Notes under the pieces: generated by a model | The model's input: the letters and a program-made list of their open reading frames with translations, nothing else | Told to the model about the DNA's origin: nothing | The model's database searches: none | Source of the DNA: Candidatus Coprousia avicola | GTDB lineage: Bacteria > Actinomycetota > Coriobacteriia > Coriobacteriales > Coriobacteriaceae | Assembly: GCA_018715125.1 (NCBI GenBank) | Contig: DVMF01000020.1 | Location: 1-39,048 of the forward strand | Direction: 5' to 3' | Length of the DNA: 39,048 bases | Position numbers and translations under genes: made by a program | Shown: one piece after another, positions 18,730 to 31,918 of the stretch | Numbering within the stretch: position 1 is the stretch's first letter | Layout: each line of letters begins with the position of its first letter

Positions 18730-21048
18730 GTGGAAAAGAAGCCAGAAGCACCCGTGACCGCATCGGCGACGACCGCCCGCGCCCAGAGCGGCAAGACCCG
18801 CAAGGCGCAAAAGCCGCTCCTCATCATTACCGAGGACGATCTCTATATGTTCGCGAACGGCACCTGGCAGCGCAGCTGGGAGAAGCTGGGCGCGCATCCC
18901 GATGTGCAGGATGGCGAGCCCGGCTGGCACTTCGCCGTTTGGGCCCCGGACGTGGCGAGCGTCCACGTCGTGGGCGATTTCAACGACTGGGACGCCACGG
19001 CGAACCCCCTGACGCAGCTCTCCCGCAGCGGCGTGTGGCAGGGCTTCGTCCCGCGCCTGCCCGAGGGAGAGCTCTACAAGTTCGTCATCGAGACCAAGGA
19101 CGGCAAGCTCCTTTACAAGGCGGACCCCTATGGGTTCTATGCCGAGAACGTCCCCGGCACCGCCTCACGCCTTCTGGACATCACGGGCTATGACTGGAAA
19201 GACGGGGTGTGGATGCGCAACCGCGCGCGCCACGACCACATGGAGCGCCCGCTCAACATCTACGAGGTGCACCTGGGCAGCTGGCGCCGCCACGGCAACG
19301 AGCCCCAGGGCGAGCCGGATGAGAACGGCAACTATCCCGGCCCGGGCGATCCGTTCCCCGCGCAGCGCGGCACGTACTACACCTACGACGACCTTTCGAC
19401 CGAGCTCGTCGAGTACGTGCGCGATATGGGCTACACCCACATCGAGCTCCTCCCGGTGATGGAGCATCCCTTCGACGGCTCGTGGGGCTACCAGCCCACG
19501 GGCTACTATGCCGCCACCTCCCGCTACGGCACGCCCAAGCAGCTCATGCACTTCGTCGAATGCTGCCATAAGGCGGGCATCGGCGTCATCCTCGACTGGG
19601 TGCCGGGCGGCTTCTGCGCCAACGAGGAGGGCCTCGCCACCTTCAACGGCAAGATGCTCTACGAGCGCGAGATCCATCCCAACTGGGGCACGCACAAGTT
19701 CGACTTCGGCCGCGGAGAGGTGCGAAGCTTCCTCGTCTCCAACGCCCTCTTCTGGATCGAGATGTTCCACGCCGACGGCATCCGCATGGACGGCGTGTCG
19801 AGCATGCTCTACCTCAACTTCGGCGTGGACGACCCCGGTCAGAAGAAGTTCAACAAGTACGGCACCGAGGAGGACCTCGACGCCTCCGCGTTCATCCGCC
19901 AGGTGAACTGCGCCGTGGGCCGCGAGTTCCCCGACGTCATGATGATCGCCGAGGAGTCCACCGCCTGGCCACTTGTCACCTACCCGCCCGAGGAGGGCGG
20001 CCTCGGCTTCCACTACAAGTGGGACATGGGCTGGATGAACGACACCCTCCACTACATGCAGACCGACTTCCCCTGGCGCCCGGGCGCCCACCGGCTCCTC
20101 ACGTTCTCGCTTATGTACGCCTTCAACGAGAACTTCGTGCTGCCGCTCAGCCATGACGAGGTCGTGAACGGCAAGTGCTCGCTCATGGGCCGCATGCCCG
20201 GCGACCAGTGGCGCCAGTTCGCGGGGCTCCGCACCCTCGCCTTCTATCAGATGACCCACCCCGGCGCGCAGCTCAACTTCATGGGCAACGAGATCGCGCC
20301 CTTCATCGAGTGGCGCTACTACGAGTCGCTCGAGTGGTTCCTCGCCGACGAGTTCGACGCGCACCGCAACCACCGCGCGTTCGTGAAGGCCCTGAACCAC
20401 CTGTACCTGAACGAGCCCGCGTTCTGGGAGAAGTCCTATACCGAGGACGGCTTCACCTGGATCGATGCCGACAACAACCAGCAGTCCATCATCTCGTTCA
20501 CCCGCCACGGCATGAAGCAGAAAGACGACGTGGTCGTCATCATCAACTTCGACCCGGCGTCCTACGAGACGTTCCGCATGGGCGTGCCGCGCGAGGGTGA
20601 CTGGCAGGTCATCTTCGACTCCGACAAGCCCGAGTTCGGCGGCAGCGGCTACCAGCTCGAAGCGCTCGACAACGCCGTTTGCTCGAGCCAGCCCTACCCG
20701 TGGAACGGCTGCGACAATTCCATCCAGCTCGCGCTCCCCGGCCTCTCGGGCATCGTGCTGAAACGCATCGGCAAGAGCTCCTACGTCCCGCCGAAGCCCA
20801 AGAAGAAGCCGGCCAAGCGCTCGGCCAAGGGCGCCGCCGCGTCGCGCGCGGCGAAGTCCGCGACGGGCGCCGCGAAGCCGGAGGCAGCCGCCAAGTCAGC
20901 GGCGAAGACGACCGCCAAGCCGGCTCCCAAGAAGCCCGCGACCAAGGCGCCGGACGAGCCCGCCGCTAAGGCAACCGCCGCTCCCTCCGGTGCCAAAGCG
21001 CCCGCAAAAAAGACCGCGAAGCCCAAATCTAGTGCCCCGACGGCATAA
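18730..21048 (+). CDS. glgB: 1,4-alpha-glucan branching enzyme with basic C-terminal tail
   Basis: Makes alpha-1,6 branches in glycogen. The 772 residues have an N-terminal carbohydrate-binding/E-set region (about 55-165), a GH13 barrel and a C-terminal beta domain. The catalytic triad is visible: nucleophile D354 in D-G-I-R-M-D-G-V, acid/base E408 in I-A-E-E-S-T, and stabiliser D476 in L-S-H-D-E-V-V. After about residue 690 the protein becomes an 80-residue Lys/Ala/Pro/Thr tail, absent from ordinary GlgB. The GTG at 18730 has GAGGGG upstream; the 41 codons before it are not family-like. First gene of the glycogen cluster. Confidence 0.95.
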   Translation: MEKKPEAPVTASATTARAQSGKTRKAQKPLLIITEDDLYMFANGTWQRSWEKLGAHPDVQDGEPGWHFAVWAPDVASVHVVGDFNDWDATANPLTQLSRSGVWQGFVPRLPEGELYKFVIETKDGKLLYKADPYGFYAENVPGTASRLLDITGYDWKDGVWMRNRARHDHMERPLNIYEVHLGSWRRHGNEPQGEPDENGNYPGPGDPFPAQRGTYYTYDDLSTELVEYVRDMGYTHIELLPVMEHPFDGSWGYQPTGYYAATSRYGTPKQLMHFVECCHKAGIGVILDWVPGGFCANEEGLATFNGKMLYEREIHPNWGTHKFDFGRGEVRSFLVSNALFWIEMFHADGIRMDGVSSMLYLNFGVDDPGQKKFNKYGTEEDLDASAFIRQVNCAVGREFPDVMMIAEESTAWPLVTYPPEEGGLGFHYKWDMGWMNDTLHYMQTDFPWRPGAHRLLTFSLMYAFNENFVLPLSHDEVVNGKCSLMGRMPGDQWRQFAGLRTLAFYQMTHPGAQLNFMGNEIAPFIEWRYYESLEWFLADEFDAHRNHRAFVKALNHLYLNEPAFWEKSYTEDGFTWIDADNNQQSIISFTRHGMKQKDDVVVIINFDPASYETFRMGVPREGDWQVIFDSDKPEFGGSGYQLEALDNAVCSSQPYPWNGCDNSIQLALPGLSGIVLKRIGKSSYVPPKPKKKPAKRSAKGAAASRAAKSATGAAKPEAAAKSAAKTTAKPAPKKPATKAPDEPAAKATAAPSGAKAPAKKTAKPKSSAPTA

Positions 21049-21147: not shown

Positions 21148-23574
21148 ATGAAACAGATCTTCGAATCCAAAGAGGACTTCATCGAGGGCTACAAAGCCTC
21201 GATTATGTCCCTGTCAGGCAAGCCCTTCGAGAACACGAGCGACCTCGACCGCTTCACCGCGCTCGCCAAGCTCATCGCCGGCAAGGCGCGCGCCATCCAG
21301 ACCGAAACGGAGACGCGCGTCTCCTCCGAGAAGCAGAAGCGCGTCTACTACTTCTCCATCGAGTTCCTCATCGGCCGTTTGCTCGACAACTACCTGCTGA
21401 ACCTCGGCGTGCGCGACGTCGTCAAGGAGGGCCTCGCCGACCTCGGCGCCGACCTCGACGAGCTCTGCGCCTACGAGCCCGACCCCGCGCTCGGCAACGG
21501 CGGCCTGGGTCGTCTCGCCGCCTGCTTCCTCGACTCGATGGCCCACGAGGGCATCGCCGGCTACGGCAACGGCATGCGCTACCGCTACGGCCTCTTCAAG
21601 CAGGAGATCGTGAACGGCGCCCAGCACGAGACCACCGACGAGTGGCTCTCCCACGGCTACCCCTGGGAGGTCCGCCGCCCCGACCGCGCCGTGCGCATCG
21701 GCTTCGGCGGTCATGTCGTGGGCGAGGAGCGCGACGGGCATATGGTGTACCACACCGAGGGTACCCAGGACGTTCTCGCCGTTCCCTATGACATCCCCGT
21801 CGTCGGCTACGGCGGCGAGACCGTCAACAAGCTCCGCGTCTGGAGCGCCGAGCCCGTGGAGGAGCAGTTCGACCTCGACGCCTTCAACCGGGGCGACTAC
21901 GCCGGCGCCGACGCGCACCGCGCCGAGGCTGAGGCCATCTCGGCCATCCTCTACCCCAACGACGCGGGCGAGCACGGCCGCCTGCTCCGCCTGAAGCAGG
22001 AGTACCTCTTCGTGTCCGCCGGCATCTACAGCCTGCTCGACACGTTTGAGAACGACTTCGGCGCCCATTGGGAGCTCCTGCCCCGCTACGTCGCCATCCA
22101 CACCAACGACACGCACCCCGCCATGTGCGGCCCCGAGCTCATGCGCATCCTCATGGACGAGAAGGGGCTCGAGTGGGACGAGGCGTGGGAGATCGTGACG
22201 AACACCATCTCCTACACCAACCACACCATCCTCCCCGAGGCGCTCGAGAAGTGGCCCATCTCCACGTTCTCCAAGCTCCTCCCCCGCGTGTACCAGATCA
22301 TCGACGAGATCAACCGCCGCTACAGCGCCGCCTTCGACCGCACGGCCGACGACTGGCAGAACCGCCTGCGCGCCACCGCCATCCTCTGGGACGGCGAGGT
22401 CCGCATGGCGAACCTGTCGGTCATCTGCAGCCACTCGGTCAACGGCGTGGCCCAGATCCACACCGACATCCTGAAGGCCGAGACTCTGAAGGACTTCTAC
22501 GCGCTCACGCCTGAGAAGTTCAACAACAAGACGAACGGCATCTCGCACCGCCGCTTCCTCGCCGAGGCGAACCCCACCTACGCCAAGCTCATCAGCGAGG
22601 CTATCGGCACGGGCTGGCTCGACGACGCCTCCGAGCTCGAGAAGCTCTCCGCCTTCGAGGGCGACCCCGCGTTCCTCGAGCGCGTCGGCGCCTCCAAGCG
22701 CGCGAACAAGGAGCGCCTCGCCCGCTACGTCAAGCAGGAGACGGGCCTGGTCATCGACCCCAACTCGATCTTCGACGTGCAGGTCAAGCGCTTCCACGCC
22801 TACAAGCGCCAGCTGCTGAACATCTTCAAGGTGATGGATATCTACAACCGTCGCCTCGCCGACCCCAACTTCCGCGTGGCGCCGACCACGTTCATCTTCT
22901 CGGGCAAGGCCGCCTCGAGCTACACCTTCGCCAAGGAGACGATCCGCCTCATCAACTCCGTCGCCGACGTCGTGAACAACGACCCGCGCGTCAACGAGGT
23001 CATGAAGGTCTGCTTCATCCCCAACTTCCGCGTCTCCAACGCCCAGCTCATCTATCCGGCGGCCGAGATCTCCGAGCAGATCTCCACGGCCGGCATGGAG
23101 GCCTCGGGCACTTCCAACATGAAGCTCATGATGAACGGCGCCATCACGCTCGGCACCATGGACGGCGCGAACATCGAGATTGTGGGCCTCGCCGGAGCCG
23201 AGAACGAGAAGATCTTCGGCCTCACCGCACCCGAGGTTGACGAGCTCCGCGCGAGCGGCATGCACTTCGCCTGGGACATGTACAACAGCGATCGCGACCG
23301 TTTAGGGCGCGTTATTGACGAACTCACCGATAACACGTTCGCTCGTCTCTCCGGTGACTTTGAGAGCATCCATAATGAGCTCATGAACGGAAACGACCAT
23401 GACTTCGTCATGAAAGACTTCCGCTCCTACGTCGACGCCTGGGAGGAGCTCACGGCGAGCTATTCCGATCGCGCGGATTGGAACCGTCGTGCGCTCCACA
23501 ACACGGCGTCCTCGGGCTGGTTCTCGTCCGACCGCACCATCCGCTCGTATCGCGACGAGATCTGGCACGCTTAA
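21148..23574 (+). CDS. glgP: Glycogen phosphorylase
   Basis: Releases glucose-1-phosphate from alpha-1,4 chain ends of glycogen or maltodextrin, with PLP. The 808 residues match the GT35 family. Seen are N-G-G-L-G-R-L-A-A-C-F-L-D-S near residue 117, and the PLP lysine K659 in E-A-S-G-T-S-N-M-K-L-M-M-N-G-A. The ATG at 21148 has GAAAGGA upstream; earlier in-frame codons cover the promoter and are rejected. It lies 99 bases after glgB with its own promoter. Confidence 0.97.
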   Translation: MKQIFESKEDFIEGYKASIMSLSGKPFENTSDLDRFTALAKLIAGKARAIQTETETRVSSEKQKRVYYFSIEFLIGRLLDNYLLNLGVRDVVKEGLADLGADLDELCAYEPDPALGNGGLGRLAACFLDSMAHEGIAGYGNGMRYRYGLFKQEIVNGAQHETTDEWLSHGYPWEVRRPDRAVRIGFGGHVVGEERDGHMVYHTEGTQDVLAVPYDIPVVGYGGETVNKLRVWSAEPVEEQFDLDAFNRGDYAGADAHRAEAEAISAILYPNDAGEHGRLLRLKQEYLFVSAGIYSLLDTFENDFGAHWELLPRYVAIHTNDTHPAMCGPELMRILMDEKGLEWDEAWEIVTNTISYTNHTILPEALEKWPISTFSKLLPRVYQIIDEINRRYSAAFDRTADDWQNRLRATAILWDGEVRMANLSVICSHSVNGVAQIHTDILKAETLKDFYALTPEKFNNKTNGISHRRFLAEANPTYAKLISEAIGTGWLDDASELEKLSAFEGDPAFLERVGASKRANKERLARYVKQETGLVIDPNSIFDVQVKRFHAYKRQLLNIFKVMDIYNRRLADPNFRVAPTTFIFSGKAASSYTFAKETIRLINSVADVVNNDPRVNEVMKVCFIPNFRVSNAQLIYPAAEISEQISTAGMEASGTSNMKLMMNGAITLGTMDGANIEIVGLAGAENEKIFGLTAPEVDELRASGMHFAWDMYNSDRDRLGRVIDELTDNTFARLSGDFESIHNELMNGNDHDFVMKDFRSYVDAWEELTASYSDRADWNRRALHNTASSGWFSSDRTIRSYRDEIWHA

Positions 23575-23700: not shown

Positions 23701-24846
23701 ATGAGTAGAAAGCAATGCATCGCGATGCTCCTCGCCGGGGGGCAGGGCAGCAGGTTGGGGGCGCTCACCGCTAAGATCGCCAAACCAGCCGTCTCGTTCG
23801 GTGGCAAGTACCGCATCATTGACTTCACGCTTTCCAACTGCGCGAACTCGGGCATCGACACGGTGGGCGTGCTGACGCAGTACCGTCCCTACCAGCTGCA
23901 CGAGTACGTCGGGTCCGGTCGCGGCTGGGACCTCAACGAGACCGGCGGCGGCATCTCGATCCTCCCGCCGTACGCGACGCAGGAGGGCGGCGCCTGGTAC
24001 GCCGGCACCGCTGACGCCGTGACGCAGAACCTCGACTACATCAAGTCGCATCACCCCGAGTACGTGCTCATCCTCTCGGGCGACGCGCTCTACCGCATGG
24101 ACTACCGCGAGATGCTCAACACGCATATCGAGCACAACGCGGACCTCACCATCGCGGTCATGCCCGTGCCGTGGGAGGACGCGAGCCGCTTCGGCATCCT
24201 CACGACCGATGACGACAAGCGCGTGACCAAGTTCACCGAGAAGCCCGAGAAGCCCGATTCTAACCTCGCGTCCATGGGCATCTACGTCTTCTCCTACGAC
24301 TTCCTCGTCAACGCCCTCGAGGAGGACGCCGTCAACCAGCGCTCGAGCCATGACTTCGGCAACGACATCATCCCGAAGGCGCTCGGCGACGGCAAGAACC
24401 TCTACGTGCACGAGTACCACGGGTTCTGGAAGGACGTCGGCACCATCGCGAGCTACCACGAGACGTCGATGGACCTTCTGGGCGCGAACCCCGAGTTCGA
24501 CCTCTTCGACAGCAAGAACCCCATCATGTCCAACGACTCCACGCGCCCGCCGCACTTCATCGGGCCCGACGGCCGCGTTGACGACGCGCTCGTCGCCAAC
24601 GGCTGCAAGATCATGGGTACGGTGCGCCACTCCATCATCTCGACCGACTGCGTCGTGGGCGAGCGTGCCATCGTCGAGGACTCCGTCCTGCTGCCCGGTG
24701 CCGTCGTGAAGAACGGCGCCCACGTGTGCCGTGCCATCCTCGGCGAGAACGCCGTGGTGGAAGAGGGCGTGAAGCTCGGCAGCGTCGATACTACGAAGGA
24801 TACGGCCGTCGTTGGAAACGACGTCGTCATCGGGAAGGGGGAATGA
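23701..24846 (+). CDS. glgC: Glucose-1-phosphate adenylyltransferase GlgC
   Basis: Catalytic ADP-glucose pyrophosphorylase: ATP plus glucose-1-phosphate gives ADP-glucose, the committed step of glycogen synthesis. The 381 residues open with the nucleotidyltransferase signature A-G-G-Q-G-S-R-L-G (12-20) and K28 in the L-T-A-K-I-A-K-P-A-V segment. The C-terminal half is the left-handed beta-helix with hexapeptide repeats. The ATG has AAGGAG upstream. The next gene, glgD, follows 4 bases later, so the two are translationally linked. Confidence 0.97.
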   Translation: MSRKQCIAMLLAGGQGSRLGALTAKIAKPAVSFGGKYRIIDFTLSNCANSGIDTVGVLTQYRPYQLHEYVGSGRGWDLNETGGGISILPPYATQEGGAWYAGTADAVTQNLDYIKSHHPEYVLILSGDALYRMDYREMLNTHIEHNADLTIAVMPVPWEDASRFGILTTDDDKRVTKFTEKPEKPDSNLASMGIYVFSYDFLVNALEEDAVNQRSSHDFGNDIIPKALGDGKNLYVHEYHGFWKDVGTIASYHETSMDLLGANPEFDLFDSKNPIMSNDSTRPPHFIGPDGRVDDALVANGCKIMGTVRHSIISTDCVVGERAIVEDSVLLPGAVVKNGAHVCRAILGENAVVEEGVKLGSVDTTKDTAVVGNDVVIGKGE

Positions 24847-24850
24847 ACCG

Positions 24851-25957
24851 ATGATCAACCGCAAGGCCATCGGCTACATCACCGCTAACTACGCGGGCTC
24901 GGAGCCCAGCAAGCTCATCCAGGACCGTCCCGTGGCGGCCGTCCCATTCCTCGGCCGCTACCGCCTGATCGACTTCCCGCTCTCCAACATGACCAACGCC
25001 GGCATCCGCACCGTCGGTCTCGTCATGCCGGGCAACTGGCGCTCCATCTCCGATCACGTGGGCCACGGCAAGGACTGGATGCTCGACCGCAAGTCGGGCG
25101 GTCTCTTCACCATGCCGGGCAACCCCTACGGCACCACGAAGAAGGGCATGCGCTTCCTGCTCCGCGACATCATCTCCAACCGCGAGCTCTTTGAGCGCGC
25201 CGACACGCCCTACGTCGTGATGATGGGTGCGAACATCATCTTCAACATGGACCTGAACGAGATCATCGACGCGCACGAGCGCTCCGGCGTGGGCGTCACC
25301 ATGGTCTACGTGAAGGCCGAGCGCCATCACAACGACGCCAACCGCCTTATCATCGGCGATGCGGGCCGCGTCCAGCAGATCGAGCCGGGCTGCGAGTACG
25401 GTGACAACAAGTTCATCGACTGCTTCGTCATCAACCGCGACCTCCTGATCGACATCATCAACAACTACGCCAACGCCGACTACCTCGACTTCTTCGAGGC
25501 CATCGCCGGCGACTTCGCGCGCATCGACGTCTGCAGCTACGAGTACAAGGGCCTCGCCATCGGCATCTTCGACGAGCGCACCTACTACCAGCGCAGCATG
25601 GAGCTCCTGACGCCGGACATCTACGACCAGCTCTTCCCCATCGACCGCCCCATCCGCACGAAGGCCCACGACGCGGCGCCGGCCAAGTACTATGCAGGCT
25701 GCAACGCGCAGAACTCCTTCATCTCGGCGGGCTGCAAGATCTTTGGCACCGTGCGCAATTCCATCCTGTCGCGCGGCGTCGTGGTGGAGAGCGGTGCGAA
25801 CGTCTCGAACTCCATCATCATGTTCAGCTGCGTGATCAAGCGCGGCGCCCGCGTCGAGAACGCCATCCTCGACAAGAACAACGTCGTCCCCGAGAACACC
25901 GAGTACCGGGGAACGCCCGACGCGATCCTTGTCATGGGCAAGGGCGACCACCAATAA
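24851..25957 (+). CDS. glgD: GlgD, non-catalytic ADP-glucose pyrophosphorylase subunit
   Basis: A 368-residue GlgC paralogue that lacks the A-G-G-x-G-x-R-L active loop; the equivalent N-terminus is T-A-N-Y-A-G-S-E-P-S-K. Such GlgD subunits pair with GlgC in Firmicutes and modulate its activity. The sugar-nucleotide-transferase fold (R-L-I-D-F-P-L-S-N) and C-terminal beta-helix remain. The ATG at 24851 is preceded by GGGGGAA and lies 4 bases past the glgC stop. A terminator follows. Confidence 0.95.
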   Translation: MINRKAIGYITANYAGSEPSKLIQDRPVAAVPFLGRYRLIDFPLSNMTNAGIRTVGLVMPGNWRSISDHVGHGKDWMLDRKSGGLFTMPGNPYGTTKKGMRFLLRDIISNRELFERADTPYVVMMGANIIFNMDLNEIIDAHERSGVGVTMVYVKAERHHNDANRLIIGDAGRVQQIEPGCEYGDNKFIDCFVINRDLLIDIINNYANADYLDFFEAIAGDFARIDVCSYEYKGLAIGIFDERTYYQRSMELLTPDIYDQLFPIDRPIRTKAHDAAPAKYYAGCNAQNSFISAGCKIFGTVRNSILSRGVVVESGANVSNSIIMFSCVIKRGARVENAILDKNNVVPENTEYRGTPDAILVMGKGDHQ

Positions 25958-25976: not shown

Positions 25977-26020
25977 CGCGCCCGTGCGGCCCCAAGGCCG
26001 TGCGGGCGCGTTATCATATT
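25977..26020 (+). terminator. Terminator after glgD
   Basis: 15-base arms (25977-25991 and 25996-26010), fully paired in RNA if two adjacent G-U wobbles are allowed, enclose loop CCAA and are followed by TTATCATATT. It separates glgC-glgD from glgA. Confidence 0.7.
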
Positions 26021-26048
26021 GACCGTCGCCCGCTGCGCGACGCATACA
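26019..26048 (+). promoter_or_regulatory. Possible glgA promoter
   Basis: TTGACC (26019-26024) lies at the end of the glgD terminator; the best -10 candidates are GCATAC/CATACA (26042-26048), a weak match. A promoter is expected because a terminator lies upstream. Confidence 0.3.
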
Positions 26049-26082
26049 TCCCTCGTGTTGGAATTGAGGAGAGTAAACCGAA

Positions 26083-28389
26083 ATGGCTAAAAACAAGATG
26101 CAAGTGGTCTTCGCCTCGGCCGAGGTAGCCCCGTTCGTCAAGACCGGCGGTCTCGGCGATGTGGCGGGATCGCTCCCCCAGGAACTGGTGAAAGACGGCT
26201 GCGACGTCATCGTCATGTGCCCCAAGTACGCCTCCATCCCCGATGAGTTCAAGGCGCGCATGGAGCACTACACCGACTTCTACGTGCCGCTGGGCTGGCG
26301 CAACGAGTACTGCGGCCTCGAGAAGATCGAGGAGGGCGGGGTCACCTATCTCTTCGTCGACAACGAGCACTACTTCAACCGCAGCTACCCGTACGGCTTC
26401 TTCGACGACGGCGAGCGCTTCGCCTTCTTCTCGAAGGCGATCTGCGAGATCCTGCAGCACCTGCCGGCCGGCTTCGAGTGCGACATCCTGCACTGCAACG
26501 ACTGGCAGACCGCCCTCGCGCCCGTGTTCCTGCGCGAGTTCTACCAGGGCCTGCCGCTCTACGAGCGCGTGAAGACGATCTTCACCATCCATAACATCGC
26601 CTTCCAGGGCCAGTTCTCCGACAAGATGCTGAACGACGTGCTCGGCCTCGCCCACATCCCCAACGCGGCGCGCCAGCTTCGCTGCGATTCGAGCTCCATC
26701 AACTTCATGCAGGGCGCGCTCTGCTACAGCGACGCCATCACCACGGTGAGCCCGAGCTACGCGCGCGAGATCAAGACCTCCGACTACGGCGAGGGCCTCG
26801 ACTGGATCTTGCGCCAGCGCTCCGATATCCTCTCGGGCATCCTGAACGGCATCGACGAGCCGTCGTGGGACCCCTCGACCGACTTCCAGATCGCCGAGAA
26901 CTACGGGGTCGGCAACATGGGCGGCAAGGCCGCCTGCAAGCGCGCCCTCCAGCAGGAGCTCGGCCTCGAGGTGCGCGACGACCGCCCGCTCATGGTCATG
27001 GTCTCGCGCCTCACCCGCCAGAAGGGCATGGACCTCGTCACCTACTCGCTCGACCGCATCCTCTCCGGCGGCGTCCAGGTCGCCGTGCTCGGCACGGGCG
27101 ACCGCGCCTACGAGGACGCGATGAACTACTTCGCGGGTAAGTACCCGGGGACCATGGCTGCGCGCATCACCTTCGACTCCGCGCTCTCGCGCCGCATGTA
27201 CGCCGGCGCCGACCTCTTCCTCATGCCGTCCCTCTTCGAGCCGTGCGGCCTCTCGCAGATCATCGCCATGCGCTACGGCACGCTGCCCGTGGTGCGCGAG
27301 ACGGGCGGTCTGCGCGACACCGTCATCCCCTACAACTACGATACCGGCGAGGGCACGGGCTTCTCGTTCGCCAACTTCAACGGCGACGAGATGGGAGACG
27401 CCGTCTTCCGTGGCGCGCGCCTGTTCTGGGACAACCGCGAGGCGTTCAACCGCGTGGTCGAGCAGGCCATGAAGACGGACTTCTCCTGGACGCGCTCGGC
27501 GGGCTCGTACCTCAGCCTCTACACCAACCTGCACCCCGACGTGGAGCCCGTCCCCCCTACGCCGCCGGCGCCCGCTCCTGAACCCGAGCCCGAGTCCGCT
27601 CCCGAGCCCGAGCCCGCCGCGGCGCCGGCCGAGAAAGCTCCTGCCGAGCCGGCACCGGTTGCGGAGGCGAAGGCGGAGCCCGCTCCCGCAGCGAAGGAGA
27701 CCCCAGCCGAGAAGCCGGCTGAGGAGCCCGAGAGCGCACCCGCCAAGGCTGCGGAGCCCGCGCCCGCGACACAGAAGGCGACCCCGGCCCCGAAGAAGCC
27801 CGCCGCCCGCACGACGCGCAAGGCGACCGCCAAGACGACGGCGACCAAGGCAACCAAGGCAGAGGAGCCCGAGAAGAAGCCCGCCGCCAAGAAGGCGACT
27901 GCAGTGAAGGCCGCCGCAGCCGAGGCGGCCCCCGCTGCCGAGAAGCCCGCGGCGAAGCGTACGACGGCCAAGGCTGCCGCCGCCAAGGCAACCGCAACCA
28001 AGACCGCGGCTGAGAAGACCGCGGCAGCGAAGACCGCGGCTGCGAAGACCACTGCAACGAAGCCCGCAGCTCCGAAGACCACTGCCGCGAAGGCAAGCGC
28101 CGCCGAGAGCGCGCCCGCCGCGAAGGCCGAGCCGGAGAAGAAGACCGCGCGCACGGCGACCGCCAAGAAGACCACCGCGGCCGCAAAGCCTGCGGCCAAG
28201 GCCGCCGCGAAGACGACGCGCACCGCAGCCAAGAAGCCCGCGGCGCCCAAGCCCGATGCGACCGCCGCCGCACCGGAGGCCGCTCCCGCACCCAAGGCCG
28301 CCGAGAAACCCGCGGAGCCGGCGAAGGCGAAGCCCGCGCCCAAGGCGACTTCGGTGAGCGCCGCCCGCAAGCGCACCACCAAGCGCTAA
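26083..28389 (+). CDS. glgA: Glycogen synthase GlgA with long acidic/basic low-complexity C-terminal extension
   Basis: ADP-glucose-dependent GT5 synthase that elongates glycogen. Residues 1 to about 486 form the complete enzyme: K-T-G-G-L-G-D-V at 20-27 (ADP-glucose/acceptor loop), then V-S-R-L-T-R-Q-K-G-M-D and the F-E-P-C-G-L-S-Q segment of the second Rossmann domain. Ordinary GlgA stops there, at about 480 residues. Here another 282 residues follow: first Pro/Glu/Ala-rich (about 487-560), then Lys/Ala/Thr/Pro-rich like histone H1 or AlgP, ending in S-A-A-R-K-R-T-T-K-R. Codon use remains high GC, with no stop or frameshift. ATG at 26083, with GAGGAG upstream. A good terminator follows. Confidence 0.94.
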   Translation: MAKNKMQVVFASAEVAPFVKTGGLGDVAGSLPQELVKDGCDVIVMCPKYASIPDEFKARMEHYTDFYVPLGWRNEYCGLEKIEEGGVTYLFVDNEHYFNRSYPYGFFDDGERFAFFSKAICEILQHLPAGFECDILHCNDWQTALAPVFLREFYQGLPLYERVKTIFTIHNIAFQGQFSDKMLNDVLGLAHIPNAARQLRCDSSSINFMQGALCYSDAITTVSPSYAREIKTSDYGEGLDWILRQRSDILSGILNGIDEPSWDPSTDFQIAENYGVGNMGGKAACKRALQQELGLEVRDDRPLMVMVSRLTRQKGMDLVTYSLDRILSGGVQVAVLGTGDRAYEDAMNYFAGKYPGTMAARITFDSALSRRMYAGADLFLMPSLFEPCGLSQIIAMRYGTLPVVRETGGLRDTVIPYNYDTGEGTGFSFANFNGDEMGDAVFRGARLFWDNREAFNRVVEQAMKTDFSWTRSAGSYLSLYTNLHPDVEPVPPTPPAPAPEPEPESAPEPEPAAAPAEKAPAEPAPVAEAKAEPAPAAKETPAEKPAEEPESAPAKAAEPAPATQKATPAPKKPAARTTRKATAKTTATKATKAEEPEKKPAAKKATAVKAAAAEAAPAAEKPAAKRTTAKAAAAKATATKTAAEKTAAAKTAAAKTTATKPAAPKTTAAKASAAESAPAAKAEPEKKTARTATAKKTTAAAKPAAKAAAKTTRTAAKKPAAPKPDATAAAPEAAPAPKAAEKPAEPAKAKPAPKATSVSAARKRTTKR
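28000..28104 (+). repeat. 15-bp degenerate tandem repeat coding for Lys-Thr-Ala-Ala-x in the GlgA tail
   Basis: Seven 15-base units, starting AAGACCGCGGCTGAG, then AAGACCGCGGCAGCG and so on, run in phase at 28000-28014, 28015-28029 and so on to 28104. Codons differ but each begins with a lysine codon. Repeat growth by slippage or unequal exchange within the gene is likely. Confidence 0.8.
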
Positions 28390-28422
28390 CGGGGCGCACA
28401 ATCGGCAATCGACCGATCTTCC

Positions 28423-28457
28423 GGGGAGGGCACGCAGCAGTGTCCTCCCCTCTTTTT
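28423..28457 (+). terminator. Intrinsic terminator of glgA
   Basis: Arms GGGGAGGGCA (28423-28432) and TGTCCTCCCC (28441-28450), one G-U wobble, are followed by TCTTTTT. Confidence 0.9.
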
Positions 28458-28513
28458 GTGCCACAGAGAAGGCAAACCTGTTGAATATCATCGTCTGCCA
28501 CCGGCTCGTCCCT

Positions 28514-28537: not shown

Positions 28538-28552
28538 TTGACGTCATGTCAA
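28538..28552. promoter_or_regulatory. Candidate operator downstream of the GH13-GH77 promoter
   Basis: TTGAC and GTCAA arms are separated by 5 bases (GTCAT), beginning about 12 bases after the predicted transcription start. Repression by a dimeric protein is inferred from position. Confidence 0.35.
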
Positions 28553-28591
28553 ATAGGTAACACACGGGCGGTTGTTAGAACGGAACTATCC

Positions 28592-31500
28592 ATGAAGCTC
28601 ATCCACCATTCCCGCCTCCCCGAGTACCGCGAGCCCTTCGGTGCGGTCACGGCGGGGAGCACGGTCTCCCTATCCCTTCGCATAGAGGACGCTCCCGACG
28701 CTCCGCTCTCCGTCAGGCTGCGCACCTGGGTCGACGGCGAGGGCGAGCGGCTGCACACCATGCAGCTGGGCGAAGACGGGCTCTGGCATGCGAGCCTCGC
28801 CTGCCCCCGTCCCGCCAACATCTGGTACACGTTCCACGTCTCCTGGGAGGAAGGCGATACGGGACGCCTCGCCCATCTCGGCTCCGCGCAAGGCCATACG
28901 GGCGGTGAGGGCGTCATGTACGATTACGCCGGCTGCCCGTCCTTCCAGATCAGCGTGTACCGCCACCGCACCGTGCGTCCCGCATGGTACGAGAAGGGCA
29001 TGGTCTACCAGATCTTCCCCGACCGCTACCGCCGTGACGATAACTGGCGCGAGCGCACCGAAGCGGCGCTCGCCCGCCCGCGCAACGGCGTGCAGCGCCG
29101 CCTCATCGAGGACTGGTGGGAGCCGCCCGTCTACGAGCGCAACGAGGACGGCTCCATCAAATACTGGGACTTCTACGGCGGCTCGCTCAAGGGTATCGAG
29201 GAGGACCTCCCCCGCCTGTCGGAGCTCGGCATCACGGCCATCTACCTCAACCCCATCTTCGAGGCAGCGAGCAACCACCGCTACGACACCGCCGACTACC
29301 TCACGATCGACCCCATCCTCGGCACCGAGGAAGACTTCCGGGACCTCTGCGCCGCAGCGGAGAAACTCGGCATGCACGTCATCCTCGACGGCGTGTTCAA
29401 CCACACCGGCGACGACTCGCTCTACTTCAACCGCTTTGGCAACTACCCCGGCGACGGAGCCTGGAACAACCCCGCCTCGCCGTGGCGCGACGCCTATGAG
29501 TTCAACGAGGACGGCACCTACAAGTGCTGGTGGGGCATCGACAACATGCCCGACCTCAACCAGGACTCCCCCTTGGTGCGCGAGCTGCTTCTGGGCGAGG
29601 ACGGGGTCATCCGCCACTGGACGCGCGCCGGCGCCCACGGCTGGCGCCTTGATGTCGCCGACGAGCTCCACGAGGACCTCATCGCCGCCATCAAGGAGAC
29701 CCTGCTCCAGGAGAAGCCCGACGGCCTGCTTCTGGGCGAGGTCTGGGAGGACGCCTCCAACAAGATGAGCTACGGCCAGCCCCGCCACTACCTGCAGGGC
29801 GACGAGCTCGACTCCGCCATGAACTACCCCTTCCGCACCATGGTGATCGACTTCCTCATGGGAAACATCGATGCCGCCGAGGCTGCCGAGGTGATCTGGA
29901 GCCTTGTGGAGAACTACCCGCCCGAGGCGCTCGCCTGCGCCCTCAACCTTCTGGGAAGCCACGACCGGCCGCGCATCGCGAGCGTGCTCGGCGGCGGCCC
30001 CGATGAGAGCAAGCTCCCCGAGGAGGAGCGCGGGCGCTGGCGCCTGTCGCCCGAGGCGATGGGCCTCGCGAAGGCGCGCTTCTGGCTCGCGACGCTCATG
30101 CAGATGACGTTCCCGGGCGTCCCCTCCATCTACTACGGCGACGAGTACGGTCTCGAGGGGCTCTCGGACCCCGGCAACCGCCGCGGCCTGCCGCGGCCCG
30201 GCGACCCGCACGAGTACGATATGGAGACCATCATCAAGAACGCCGCGGGCGTCCGCCGCGAGCTCCCGGTTCTCGTCAACGGAACCATCCGCCCGTTCGC
30301 GCCCACCGAGGACGTCCTTGGCTACACGCGCGAGAACGACCGGGGCGAGGCCGCGACCGTCCTCATCAACCGCAGCCGCACCACGGACGCCACCGTGCGC
30401 ATCCCCGCGCTCGGGGCCTGCGCCACCGACGTCGTCTCGGGCACCGAGCTCACCGTCGACGCCGACGGCATGTGCGAGGTCCACCTCTGGCCCTTCGGCT
30501 CCGCCGTCGTCTCCTTCCATCCCGAGACGCGCCTGCAGAAGCCGCTCGCGCCTGGCGCGGGCGTCGTCTGCCACATCACGTCGCTTCCCACCGATGACGG
30601 GCGTCCCGGCACGCTCGGCGAGCCCGCGAAGCGCTTCATCGATCATCTCGCCGCCATGGGATTCACGTACTGGCAGGTCCTCCCGGTCAACCCGACGGAC
30701 CTCTACCGCTCGCCGTACGCCGGCCCCTCGGCCTTTGCGGGAAACATCGCGCTTCTGCCCGAGACCGAGGAGGAGCTGCGTGCCGACTTCGTGCGGTGGG
30801 AGGCCGCGGGCGGCGCGGGCACCGACATCGCCTACCGCGACTACGTCGAGGACCAGCGCTTCTGGCTCGAGCCCTACTGCGCCTTCATGGCCGTCAAGAA
30901 GCACTTCGGCGGCACGTCCCGCCATGAATGGCCCCAGGAGCTCAGCCGCTACCGCCCCCAGCTGCTCAAGGACCCGCGCTTCGCGACCGAGGCGCACATC
31001 CAGTCCTACCTGCAGTACCGCTTCGAGCTCGCGTGGCAGGAGACCATGGGCTACGCCAACGCCCAGGGCATCCAGGTCATAGGCGACATCCCCATGTACG
31101 TGTCCGATGACTCGGCCGACGCTTGGGCCAACCCCGAGCTCTTCACCCTCGACCGCGACGGCCGCCCGACCGAGATCGCCGGGGCGCCGCCCGACAACTT
31201 CGCCCCCGAGGGCCAGGTATGGGGCAACCCCACCTACCGCTGGGACGTGCTTCGCGCCGACGGCTACCGCTGGTGGTTCGCCCGCCTGCGCCGCGCCATA
31301 CGCGTCTACGACCGCGTCCGCCTCGACCACTTCCTCGGGTTCCACAACTTCTTCTCCATTCCCGCCGGTGCGCCCGGCTCTGAGGGCCGCTGGATCCCCG
31401 GTCCCGGCCGGGACCTCTTCGAGAAGGCGGCCTCCGAACTCGGCCCGCTGCCGTTTATCGCCGAGGACCTCGGCGTGCTCACCCCGGGCGTGCGCGCCCT

Positions 31501-31918
31501 CGTGAGCGCCTGCGGCTTCCCGGGGATGGATGTGCTGCTGTTTGAGGACTACGATATCCGCGCGGGCATCCACCCCAAGCCGGAGAAGATCCTCTACACC
31601 TCGACACACGACACGGCGACCCTCGCCGGCTTCTGCGCCGCCAGCTTTACGGGCGGCGATGAGGCCGCATCGGTGGAGCTCGCCCAGAAGTTGGTGGAGG
31701 ATGCGCTCGCAAGCGACGCCGACGTGGTCATGATGCCGCTTCAGGACGTCCTGGGGCTCGGCGACGATTGCCGCATGAACGTGCCCGGCGTGGCCGAAGG
31801 CAACTGGAGCTGGCAGGCGGAGGAGGCGGATATCGCCGCTGCCGAGGCCGCCGTCGCCGCCCTGCTCTCCCGCACCGGCCGCTTCGCCGGCGAGGCGCGC
31901 GAGCCGTCCCACTTGTGA
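28592..31918 (+). CDS. Fusion of GH13 alpha-glucosidase/neopullulanase-type enzyme and GH77 4-alpha-glucanotransferase
   Basis: One 1108-residue polypeptide with two complete catalytic modules. Residues 1-115 are an E-set type binding domain. The GH13 barrel has D354 in G-W-R-L-D-V-A-D-E, E383 in G-E-V-W-E-D and D458 in G-S-H-D-R-P. From about residue 650 a GH77 (MalQ) module follows, with nucleophile D912 in V-R-L-D-H-F-L-G-F, acid/base E958 in F-I-A-E-D-L-G-V-L and D1007 in S-T-H-D-T-A-T. It would trim and rearrange short maltodextrins left after phosphorolysis. No signal peptide is seen, so it is cytoplasmic. ATG 28592 is chosen because GGAAC precedes it; the ribosome-binding site is weak. 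Confidence 0.92.
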   Translation: MKLIHHSRLPEYREPFGAVTAGSTVSLSLRIEDAPDAPLSVRLRTWVDGEGERLHTMQLGEDGLWHASLACPRPANIWYTFHVSWEEGDTGRLAHLGSAQGHTGGEGVMYDYAGCPSFQISVYRHRTVRPAWYEKGMVYQIFPDRYRRDDNWRERTEAALARPRNGVQRRLIEDWWEPPVYERNEDGSIKYWDFYGGSLKGIEEDLPRLSELGITAIYLNPIFEAASNHRYDTADYLTIDPILGTEEDFRDLCAAAEKLGMHVILDGVFNHTGDDSLYFNRFGNYPGDGAWNNPASPWRDAYEFNEDGTYKCWWGIDNMPDLNQDSPLVRELLLGEDGVIRHWTRAGAHGWRLDVADELHEDLIAAIKETLLQEKPDGLLLGEVWEDASNKMSYGQPRHYLQGDELDSAMNYPFRTMVIDFLMGNIDAAEAAEVIWSLVENYPPEALACALNLLGSHDRPRIASVLGGGPDESKLPEEERGRWRLSPEAMGLAKARFWLATLMQMTFPGVPSIYYGDEYGLEGLSDPGNRRGLPRPGDPHEYDMETIIKNAAGVRRELPVLVNGTIRPFAPTEDVLGYTRENDRGEAATVLINRSRTTDATVRIPALGACATDVVSGTELTVDADGMCEVHLWPFGSAVVSFHPETRLQKPLAPGAGVVCHITSLPTDDGRPGTLGEPAKRFIDHLAAMGFTYWQVLPVNPTDLYRSPYAGPSAFAGNIALLPETEEELRADFVRWEAAGGAGTDIAYRDYVEDQRFWLEPYCAFMAVKKHFGGTSRHEWPQELSRYRPQLLKDPRFATEAHIQSYLQYRFELAWQETMGYANAQGIQVIGDIPMYVSDDSADAWANPELFTLDRDGRPTEIAGAPPDNFAPEGQVWGNPTYRWDVLRADGYRWWFARLRRAIRVYDRVRLDHFLGFHNFFSIPAGAPGSEGRWIPGPGRDLFEKAASELGPLPFIAEDLGVLTPGVRALVSACGFPGMDVLLFEDYDIRAGIHPKPEKILYTSTHDTATLAGFCAASFTGGDEAASVELAQKLVEDALASDADVVMMPLQDVLGLGDDCRMNVPGVAEGNWSWQAEEADIAAAEAAVAALLSRTGRFAGEAREPSHL

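Follow-up and report, generated by a model that had tools for sequence, protein, structure and literature searches.

Basic Lys/Ala/Pro tails on the glycogen synthase and branching enzyme of Coriobacteriia: possible anchors of glycogen at the nucleoid

The glycogen operon and its two tailed enzymes

The window, that is, the whole stretch of 39,048 nucleotides that was analysed, belongs to a Coriobacteriaceae genome of 2.42 Mb in 93 contigs. Its closest named relatives are Collinsella sp. An307, with a GlgB core identity of 93%, and species of Enorma and Collinsella. The window contains a glycogen operon in the order glgB-glgP-glgC-glgD-glgA, and a GH13-GH77 fusion gene follows.

The glgB gene lies at 18730-21048 on the plus strand, with a proposed GTG start and the stop codon at 21046-21048. 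It encodes a 1,4-alpha-glucan branching enzyme of 772 amino acids consisting of CBM48, GH13 and a C-terminal beta domain. In the comparison with curated profiles, GlgB gave full-length matches to PRK12313 (814 bits against a cut-off of 577, residues 33-679) and to PRK05402 (800 bits, cut-off 741). The last strand of its core (...VLKRIGKSSYV) is followed by a tail of 86 residues, which runs from PPKPKKKPAKRSAKG to KPKSSAPTA and is encoded at 20788-21045 on the plus strand. An earlier note on this DNA had described a basic Lys/Ala/Pro tail of about 80 residues at this end of GlgB, and the description was confirmed, except that the start it gave, 20790, was two bases late. The tail is composed of A30 K20 P14 S7 T7 G3 R2 E2 D1 and has a net charge of +19; the count contains no aromatic and no aliphatic (V/L/I/M) residue. 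The domain search found no Pfam match within the tail. The Pfam and NCBIfam models of the GlgA and GlgB families end short of the tails in the window, those for GlgB at residues 678-684. When GlgB was modelled by AlphaFold2 with an alignment of 31 sequences, residues 698-772 had pLDDT values below 50 and no secondary structure, some segments of the core being poorly modelled as well. By its composition and this model, the region is a disordered Lys/Ala/Pro C-terminus with net positive charge, as in tethers of the PhaF/PhaM/AlgP/MLDS type.

The glgA gene, at 26083-28389 on the plus strand, encodes an ADP-glucose-type glycogen synthase of 768 amino acids, which also matched curated profiles over its full length (PRK00654.1-1, 642 bits, cut-off 603; TIGR02095, 537 bits, cut-off 328). 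The folded cores of the two enzymes are thus full members of the GlgA (GT5) and GlgB (GH13 with CBM48) families (NCBIfam PRK00654, TIGR02095, PRK12313). The tail of GlgA (27541-28386, plus strand) has 282 residues, a net charge of +25 and no aromatic residue. Its proximal part is acidic and rich in Pro and Glu (net -5 over the first 94 residues), and its later thirds are basic (+14 and +16). It ends in the peptide PKATSVSAARKRTTKR-COOH, encoded at 28339-28386 on the plus strand, the pattern of which is common to several genera of Coriobacteriaceae. The acidic first part and the conserved C-terminal peptide distinguish the GlgA tail from that of GlgB, which has neither. The earlier note considered that the two enzymes share a style of tail. 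This holds for the composition and the spacing of lysines, which are alike, but not for the sequences themselves, which are not alignable. The motif KPAA occurs six times in the GlgA tail and not at all in that of GlgB, and PAKKA occurs in neither. The DNA of the GlgA tail contains a short 15/30-bp tandem array. That of the GlgB tail is not a tandem repeat, and its only unit of this kind is one of 21 bp present twice.

An open frame of 825 amino acids, longer than glgA itself, runs antisense to glgA at 26014-28491 on the minus strand. It appears to be spurious, arising from the GC-rich Lys and Ala codons of the tail, and it leads gene finding by the longest open reading frame astray.

The other genes of the operon served as internal controls. 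Glycogen phosphorylase (glgP, 21148-23574), ADP-glucose pyrophosphorylase (glgC, 23701-24846) and the GlgC-like subunit (glgD, 24812-25957, with the ATG at 24848 as the likelier start), all on the plus strand, have no tail, just as the earlier note had stated. The same was true more widely, since in 72 genomes no GlgP, GlgC or GlgD had a tail or extended more than 12 residues past its core. Directly downstream of glgA, at 28538-31918, lies a gene for a GH13 alpha-amylase domain fused to a GH77 4-alpha-glucanotransferase (MalQ-like, 1126 amino acids), which has no basic tail.

Distribution of the tails within genomes and among relatives

We surveyed two genomes for similar tails on other proteins, using a home-made ORF caller based on codon scores. 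The survey of the window's own genome covered 682 kb (28% of the genome, 480 genes), and that of a complete genome of the C. aerofaciens group covered 411 kb (about 18%, 290 genes). When 40-residue windows were ranked as K/A-rich and of low complexity, GlgB was first and GlgA second among the 480 genes, and the order was the same among the 290 genes. The lower ranks in the own genome were taken by ribosomal proteins, a Rho-like N-terminus, IF-2 and scattered segments (names read from the sequences). No other Lys/Ala/Pro tail of comparable length was present among the 480 genes; a ribosomal L17-like protein, likewise named from its sequence, has a short K/A/P/E end that is net-neutral. No tail was seen on the remaining GH13 enzymes of this genome with readable ends. 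The GlgB tail as a protein query against the own genome found itself and one chance match, in a search that penalises low-complexity matches. A genome-wide codon pattern with A or C in second position was uninformative, since its 538 overlapping matches equalled the reversed control, with GlgA absent among the matches listed. A KxxKxxK codon pattern matched nothing except the basic stretch of a Rho-like ORF at the end of a contig. The earlier note would have given up its proposal if similar tails were common on unrelated proteins. They are not, in the 682 kb and 411 kb surveyed, because GlgB and GlgA head both rankings and the other readable GH13 enzymes are without a tail.

A search of 118 Coriobacteriales genomes for GlgB and GlgA located them in 78 genomes, and we read about 95 operons. 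Tail starts were set by local alignment to the cores of GlgA and GlgB in the window; many of the genomes are MAGs, and the counts from relatives given here are not independent. In genera g1-g5 (57 Coriobacteriaceae genomes), median tail lengths were 72 residues for GlgB, with a net charge of +20, and 269 residues for GlgA, with a net charge of +28. Genus g6 and 12 Atopobiaceae had the tail on GlgB (median 48-54 residues), but their GlgA ended at its core. Nearly all Coriobacteriaceae and most of the Atopobiaceae examined thus have the tail on GlgB. Tails on GlgA recur in Atopobiaceae, namely in g82 (290 residues, 20 KPAA, net +60), g106, g95 and g44, that of g106 being 243 residues long and accompanied by no GlgB tail. 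They also occur in Eggerthellaceae, and single genomes of Oscillospiraceae and Eubacteriaceae (L191, L206) have short basic tails on GlgA and none on GlgB. GlgB tails reached 265 residues and tailed GlgA proteins carried 58-463, and the net charge stayed positive. To our knowledge, GlgA and GlgB of E. coli carry no such tails.

The Atopobiaceae locus L298 (genome G397), where the GlgB tail is absent, encodes a GlgA tail of 243 residues with helical-looking repeats rich in A, E and K that end in KPAPKPAPK. L196 and L204 (Oscillospiraceae/Clostridia) have long non-basic GlgA tails (PEPAPEPA repeats, net -3, and 202 amino acids, net -4), and these sequences suggest that other kinds of GlgA tail exist. 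Apart from the tails, the HU/IHF family (PF00216) was matched in 0 of 64 Coriobacteriales genomes and in 9 of 14 control genomes, and Coriobacteriales may lack HU.

The earlier note had let its proposal depend also on a correlation of the two tails across genomes, and here it failed. Both tails were present in 56 of 91 genomes, the GlgB tail only in 25, the GlgA tail only in 6, and neither in 4. On a tree of GlgP from the same 91 genomes, at least six changes of state were needed for the GlgA tail and at least seven for the GlgB tail. Among phylogenetically independent pairs, of which few were informative, the two tails never changed in the same direction.

Selection and sequence pattern

Selection on the tails was analysed in 21 genomes of the C. 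aerofaciens group. In the cores dN/dS was 0.03-0.04; in the tails it reached 0.38 for GlgB and 0.25 for GlgA. Pairwise differences among these genomes amounted to about 6% for Lys, in contrast to values for Ala, Thr, Pro and Ser of roughly 16-60%. Columns with Lys or Arg were invariant more often than those with A, T, P, S or G, both in the GlgB tail (odds ratio 5.1, p=0.0035) and in the GlgA tail (odds ratio 12.2, p=2e-14). These results indicate that the Lys/Arg positions of the tails are under purifying selection; that is, the charge is selected. The GlgB tail, which recurs across Coriobacteriaceae and Atopobiaceae and whose DNA is not a tandem repeat, is therefore a real feature and not a product of chance.

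In a reduced set of relatives, 45 of 51 GlgB tails and 38 of 41 GlgA tails showed a peak of the distance between lysines at 4-5 residues, distances of 2-3 being depleted and those of 4-5 enriched. In the same set, KPAA was found 55 and 148 times, against 9.3 and 18.4 times in residue-shuffled tails, a 6-8-fold enrichment. The GlgA tail of several genera ends in PKATSVSAARKxTT(R/K)KR-COOH, that of the C. aerofaciens group in KKTSVRKATATRKRR, and a codon pattern of the VSAARK type had a single match in the genome, at the C-terminal end of GlgA. No conserved end motif was found in the GlgB tail. The C-terminal peptide of GlgA, lying inside an otherwise fast-changing tail, is a possible short linear motif.

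Candidate partners of the tails

The earlier note proposed that the tails reflect a common docking function of the polymer-building enzymes rather than chance. A shared function is indeed favoured, because the tails are limited to the two building enzymes, are not common on unrelated proteins in the parts of the two genomes surveyed and are under selection. Docking of the tail on glycogen itself we consider unlikely. The tails sit on both enzymes that extend and branch glycogen, so that a glycogen-binding module might come to mind. Starch-binding modules depend on aromatic stacking, but neither tail in the window has an aromatic residue, and the tail shows nothing of the folded beta domain, with its aromatic residues for binding, that such a module would require. 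Glycogen is uncharged, and GlgB already has CBM48. We regard this explanation as the least credible of all. An anionic partner fits better, namely nucleoid DNA or else RNA or polyphosphate. Hardly more credible is the neutral accretion of low-complexity sequence by slippage in a GC-rich genome. The tails do evolve about ten times faster than the cores, and the GlgA tail has its 15/30-bp tandem units; but the dN/dS of 0.25-0.38, the invariant lysines and the absence of tails from about 770 other sampled genes, as well as from glgP, glgC and glgD of the same operons, largely refute it. A disordered charged tail could also act without any specific partner, as an entropic bristle that keeps polymer-bound enzymes soluble or hinders the aggregation of particles. 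This would agree with the fast drift of sequence and length under a constantly positive net charge. An acidic tail would serve equally well, yet basic residues were chosen and lysine positions conserved, KPAA-type spacing exceeds what composition gives, and GlgP, which has no tail, acts on glycogen too; we think it rather improbable that solubility is the whole explanation.

Among anionic partners, polyphosphate has the precedent of AlgP, and the tails might couple glycogen to polyphosphate granules. The gene ppk1 is present in the own genome and in 95 of 118 relatives. Seven small genomes of 1.5-1.7 Mb (G042, G048, G050, G089, G093, G105, G108) are without ppk1 and PPK2, and their GlgB tails tend to be weak or missing. 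Among near-complete genomes, a weak or absent GlgB tail was seen in 4 of the 7 that lack ppk1 and in 3 of the 62 that have it (Fisher p=0.0013, kinship being ignored). Against this, loss of ppk is confounded with genome size, which itself correlates with tail length (rho 0.46), and G042, which lacks PPK1 and PPK2, keeps a basic GlgB tail. Moreover, the near-complete Coriobacteriaceae G042, G048 and G050, all without PPK1 and PPK2, retain GlgA tails of 108-208 residues with net charges of +22 to +31. Polyphosphate as the main rival partner is weakened by these three genomes, and we judge it of low probability. Another rival, unlikely but somewhat less so, is that the tails gather the enzymes through RNA or ribosomes, or that the basic tail of GlgB pairs with the acidic Pro/Glu segment of GlgA to form a condensate of glycogen synthesis. 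Of 57 GlgA tails, 28 have a first third with a net negative charge, the value for the window being -5, while the GlgB tail is purely basic, and the genome's other Lys/Arg-rich proteins include Rho and ribosomal proteins. This pairing does not account for the GlgB tails retained by genus g6 and most Atopobiaceae, where GlgA is without an acidic segment, nor for a GlgA tail without a GlgB tail, as in L298.

Nucleoid DNA as the partner is suggested by known systems. PhaF, PhaM, AlgP and MLDS hold stores of PHA, polyphosphate and lipid at the nucleoid, and their DNA-binding parts are disordered Lys/Ala/Pro tails with a lysine every 4 residues or so (PMC13052382, PMC9049629, PMC9239181, PMC3556143, PMC5504291). 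The KPAA tail of AlgP from Pseudomonas aeruginosa, which positions polyphosphate granules, resembles the present tails in its disorder, high positive charge and relation to granules and, as far as GlgA in the window is concerned, in its KPAA-type repeats (PMC9239181). AlgP differs in being a protein of its own without enzymatic function and in having polyphosphate as its store, whereas the tails of GlgA and GlgB are on polymer-building enzymes and have looser repeats. In PhaF and PhaM, the basic Lys/Ala/Pro C-terminus (with PAKKA in PhaM) likewise binds DNA nonspecifically while the other end is on the store, and PhaM forms complexes with the polymerase PhaC; these, however, are phasin-like adaptors on a hydrophobic polyester granule, and their N-terminal parts are not glycogen enzymes. 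MLDS/JLP of Rhodococcus jostii, also of the Actinomycetota, tethers lipid droplets to genomic DNA through a Lys-rich PAKKA C-terminus, and Lys-to-Glu mutation abolishes the binding (PMC5504291). Here the store is triacylglycerol, and the tail is on a droplet coat protein instead of an enzyme. By analogy with these tethers of PHA, polyphosphate and fat stores, glycogen may be anchored likewise.

We therefore tentatively favour the view that the tails of GlgA and GlgB are polycationic anchors through which newly forming glycogen is tied to an anionic polymer, the nucleoid being the most likely one, although we hold it a little short of probable. It rests on the occurrence of the tails on GlgA and GlgB only (in the operons of 72 genomes, and in 28% and about 18% of two genomes), the selection on lysine, the 4-5-residue spacing, the enrichment of KPAA and the precedents. 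The tails would be intrinsically disordered and similar to histone H1. The folded core of GlgB or GlgA would be the store-binding end that grips the growing glucan; binding of stored glycogen by the cores is expected from the catalysis of GlgA and GlgB on glycogen and from CBM48. The Lys/Ala/Pro tail would bind a polyanion, most likely nucleoid DNA, without sequence specificity, and the conserved C-terminal peptide of GlgA would probably add a more specific contact. Glycogen particles would then be formed at the chromosome and kept near it instead of drifting to the pole, and they would be spaced apart and divided among daughter cells. DNA as the partner, and positioning and inheritance of glycogen as the benefit, are what we infer from this comparison.

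Several observations count against the nucleoid anchor. The GlgB tail of the window has no exact KPAA or PAKKA; the two tails evolve uncorrelated, and a few species have neither; composition is equally compatible with DNA, RNA, ribosomes or polyphosphate as partner; and the coincidence of weak GlgB tails with ppk1 loss and small genomes is unpredicted by a pure DNA tether.

Nucleoid tethering through Lys/Ala/Pro tails is already known for PHA, polyphosphate and lipid stores. For glycogen, our search of the open-licence literature turned up no publication that deals with lysine-rich tails on bacterial GlgA or GlgB or with a glycogen-nucleoid tether, and a 2025 review of the positioning of bacterial organelles does not mention glycogen (PMC13052382). 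In E. coli, glycogen gathers at the old poles and daughter cells inherit it unequally (PMC4836754), which is the problem that a tether would solve. The fuller proposal, that Coriobacteriia tether glycogen to the nucleoid by histone H1-like tails fused to the synthase and the branching enzyme, which evolved several times on either enzyme and gained a C-terminal recognition peptide on GlgA, is possible but to be held more cautiously still. If it is true, the tails would be the glycogen counterpart of PhaF/PhaM for PHA, AlgP for polyphosphate and MLDS for lipid. Glycogen, a very widespread carbon store, would then also be positioned and inherited in gut Coriobacteriia, and the tether would be part of the synthesising enzymes themselves.
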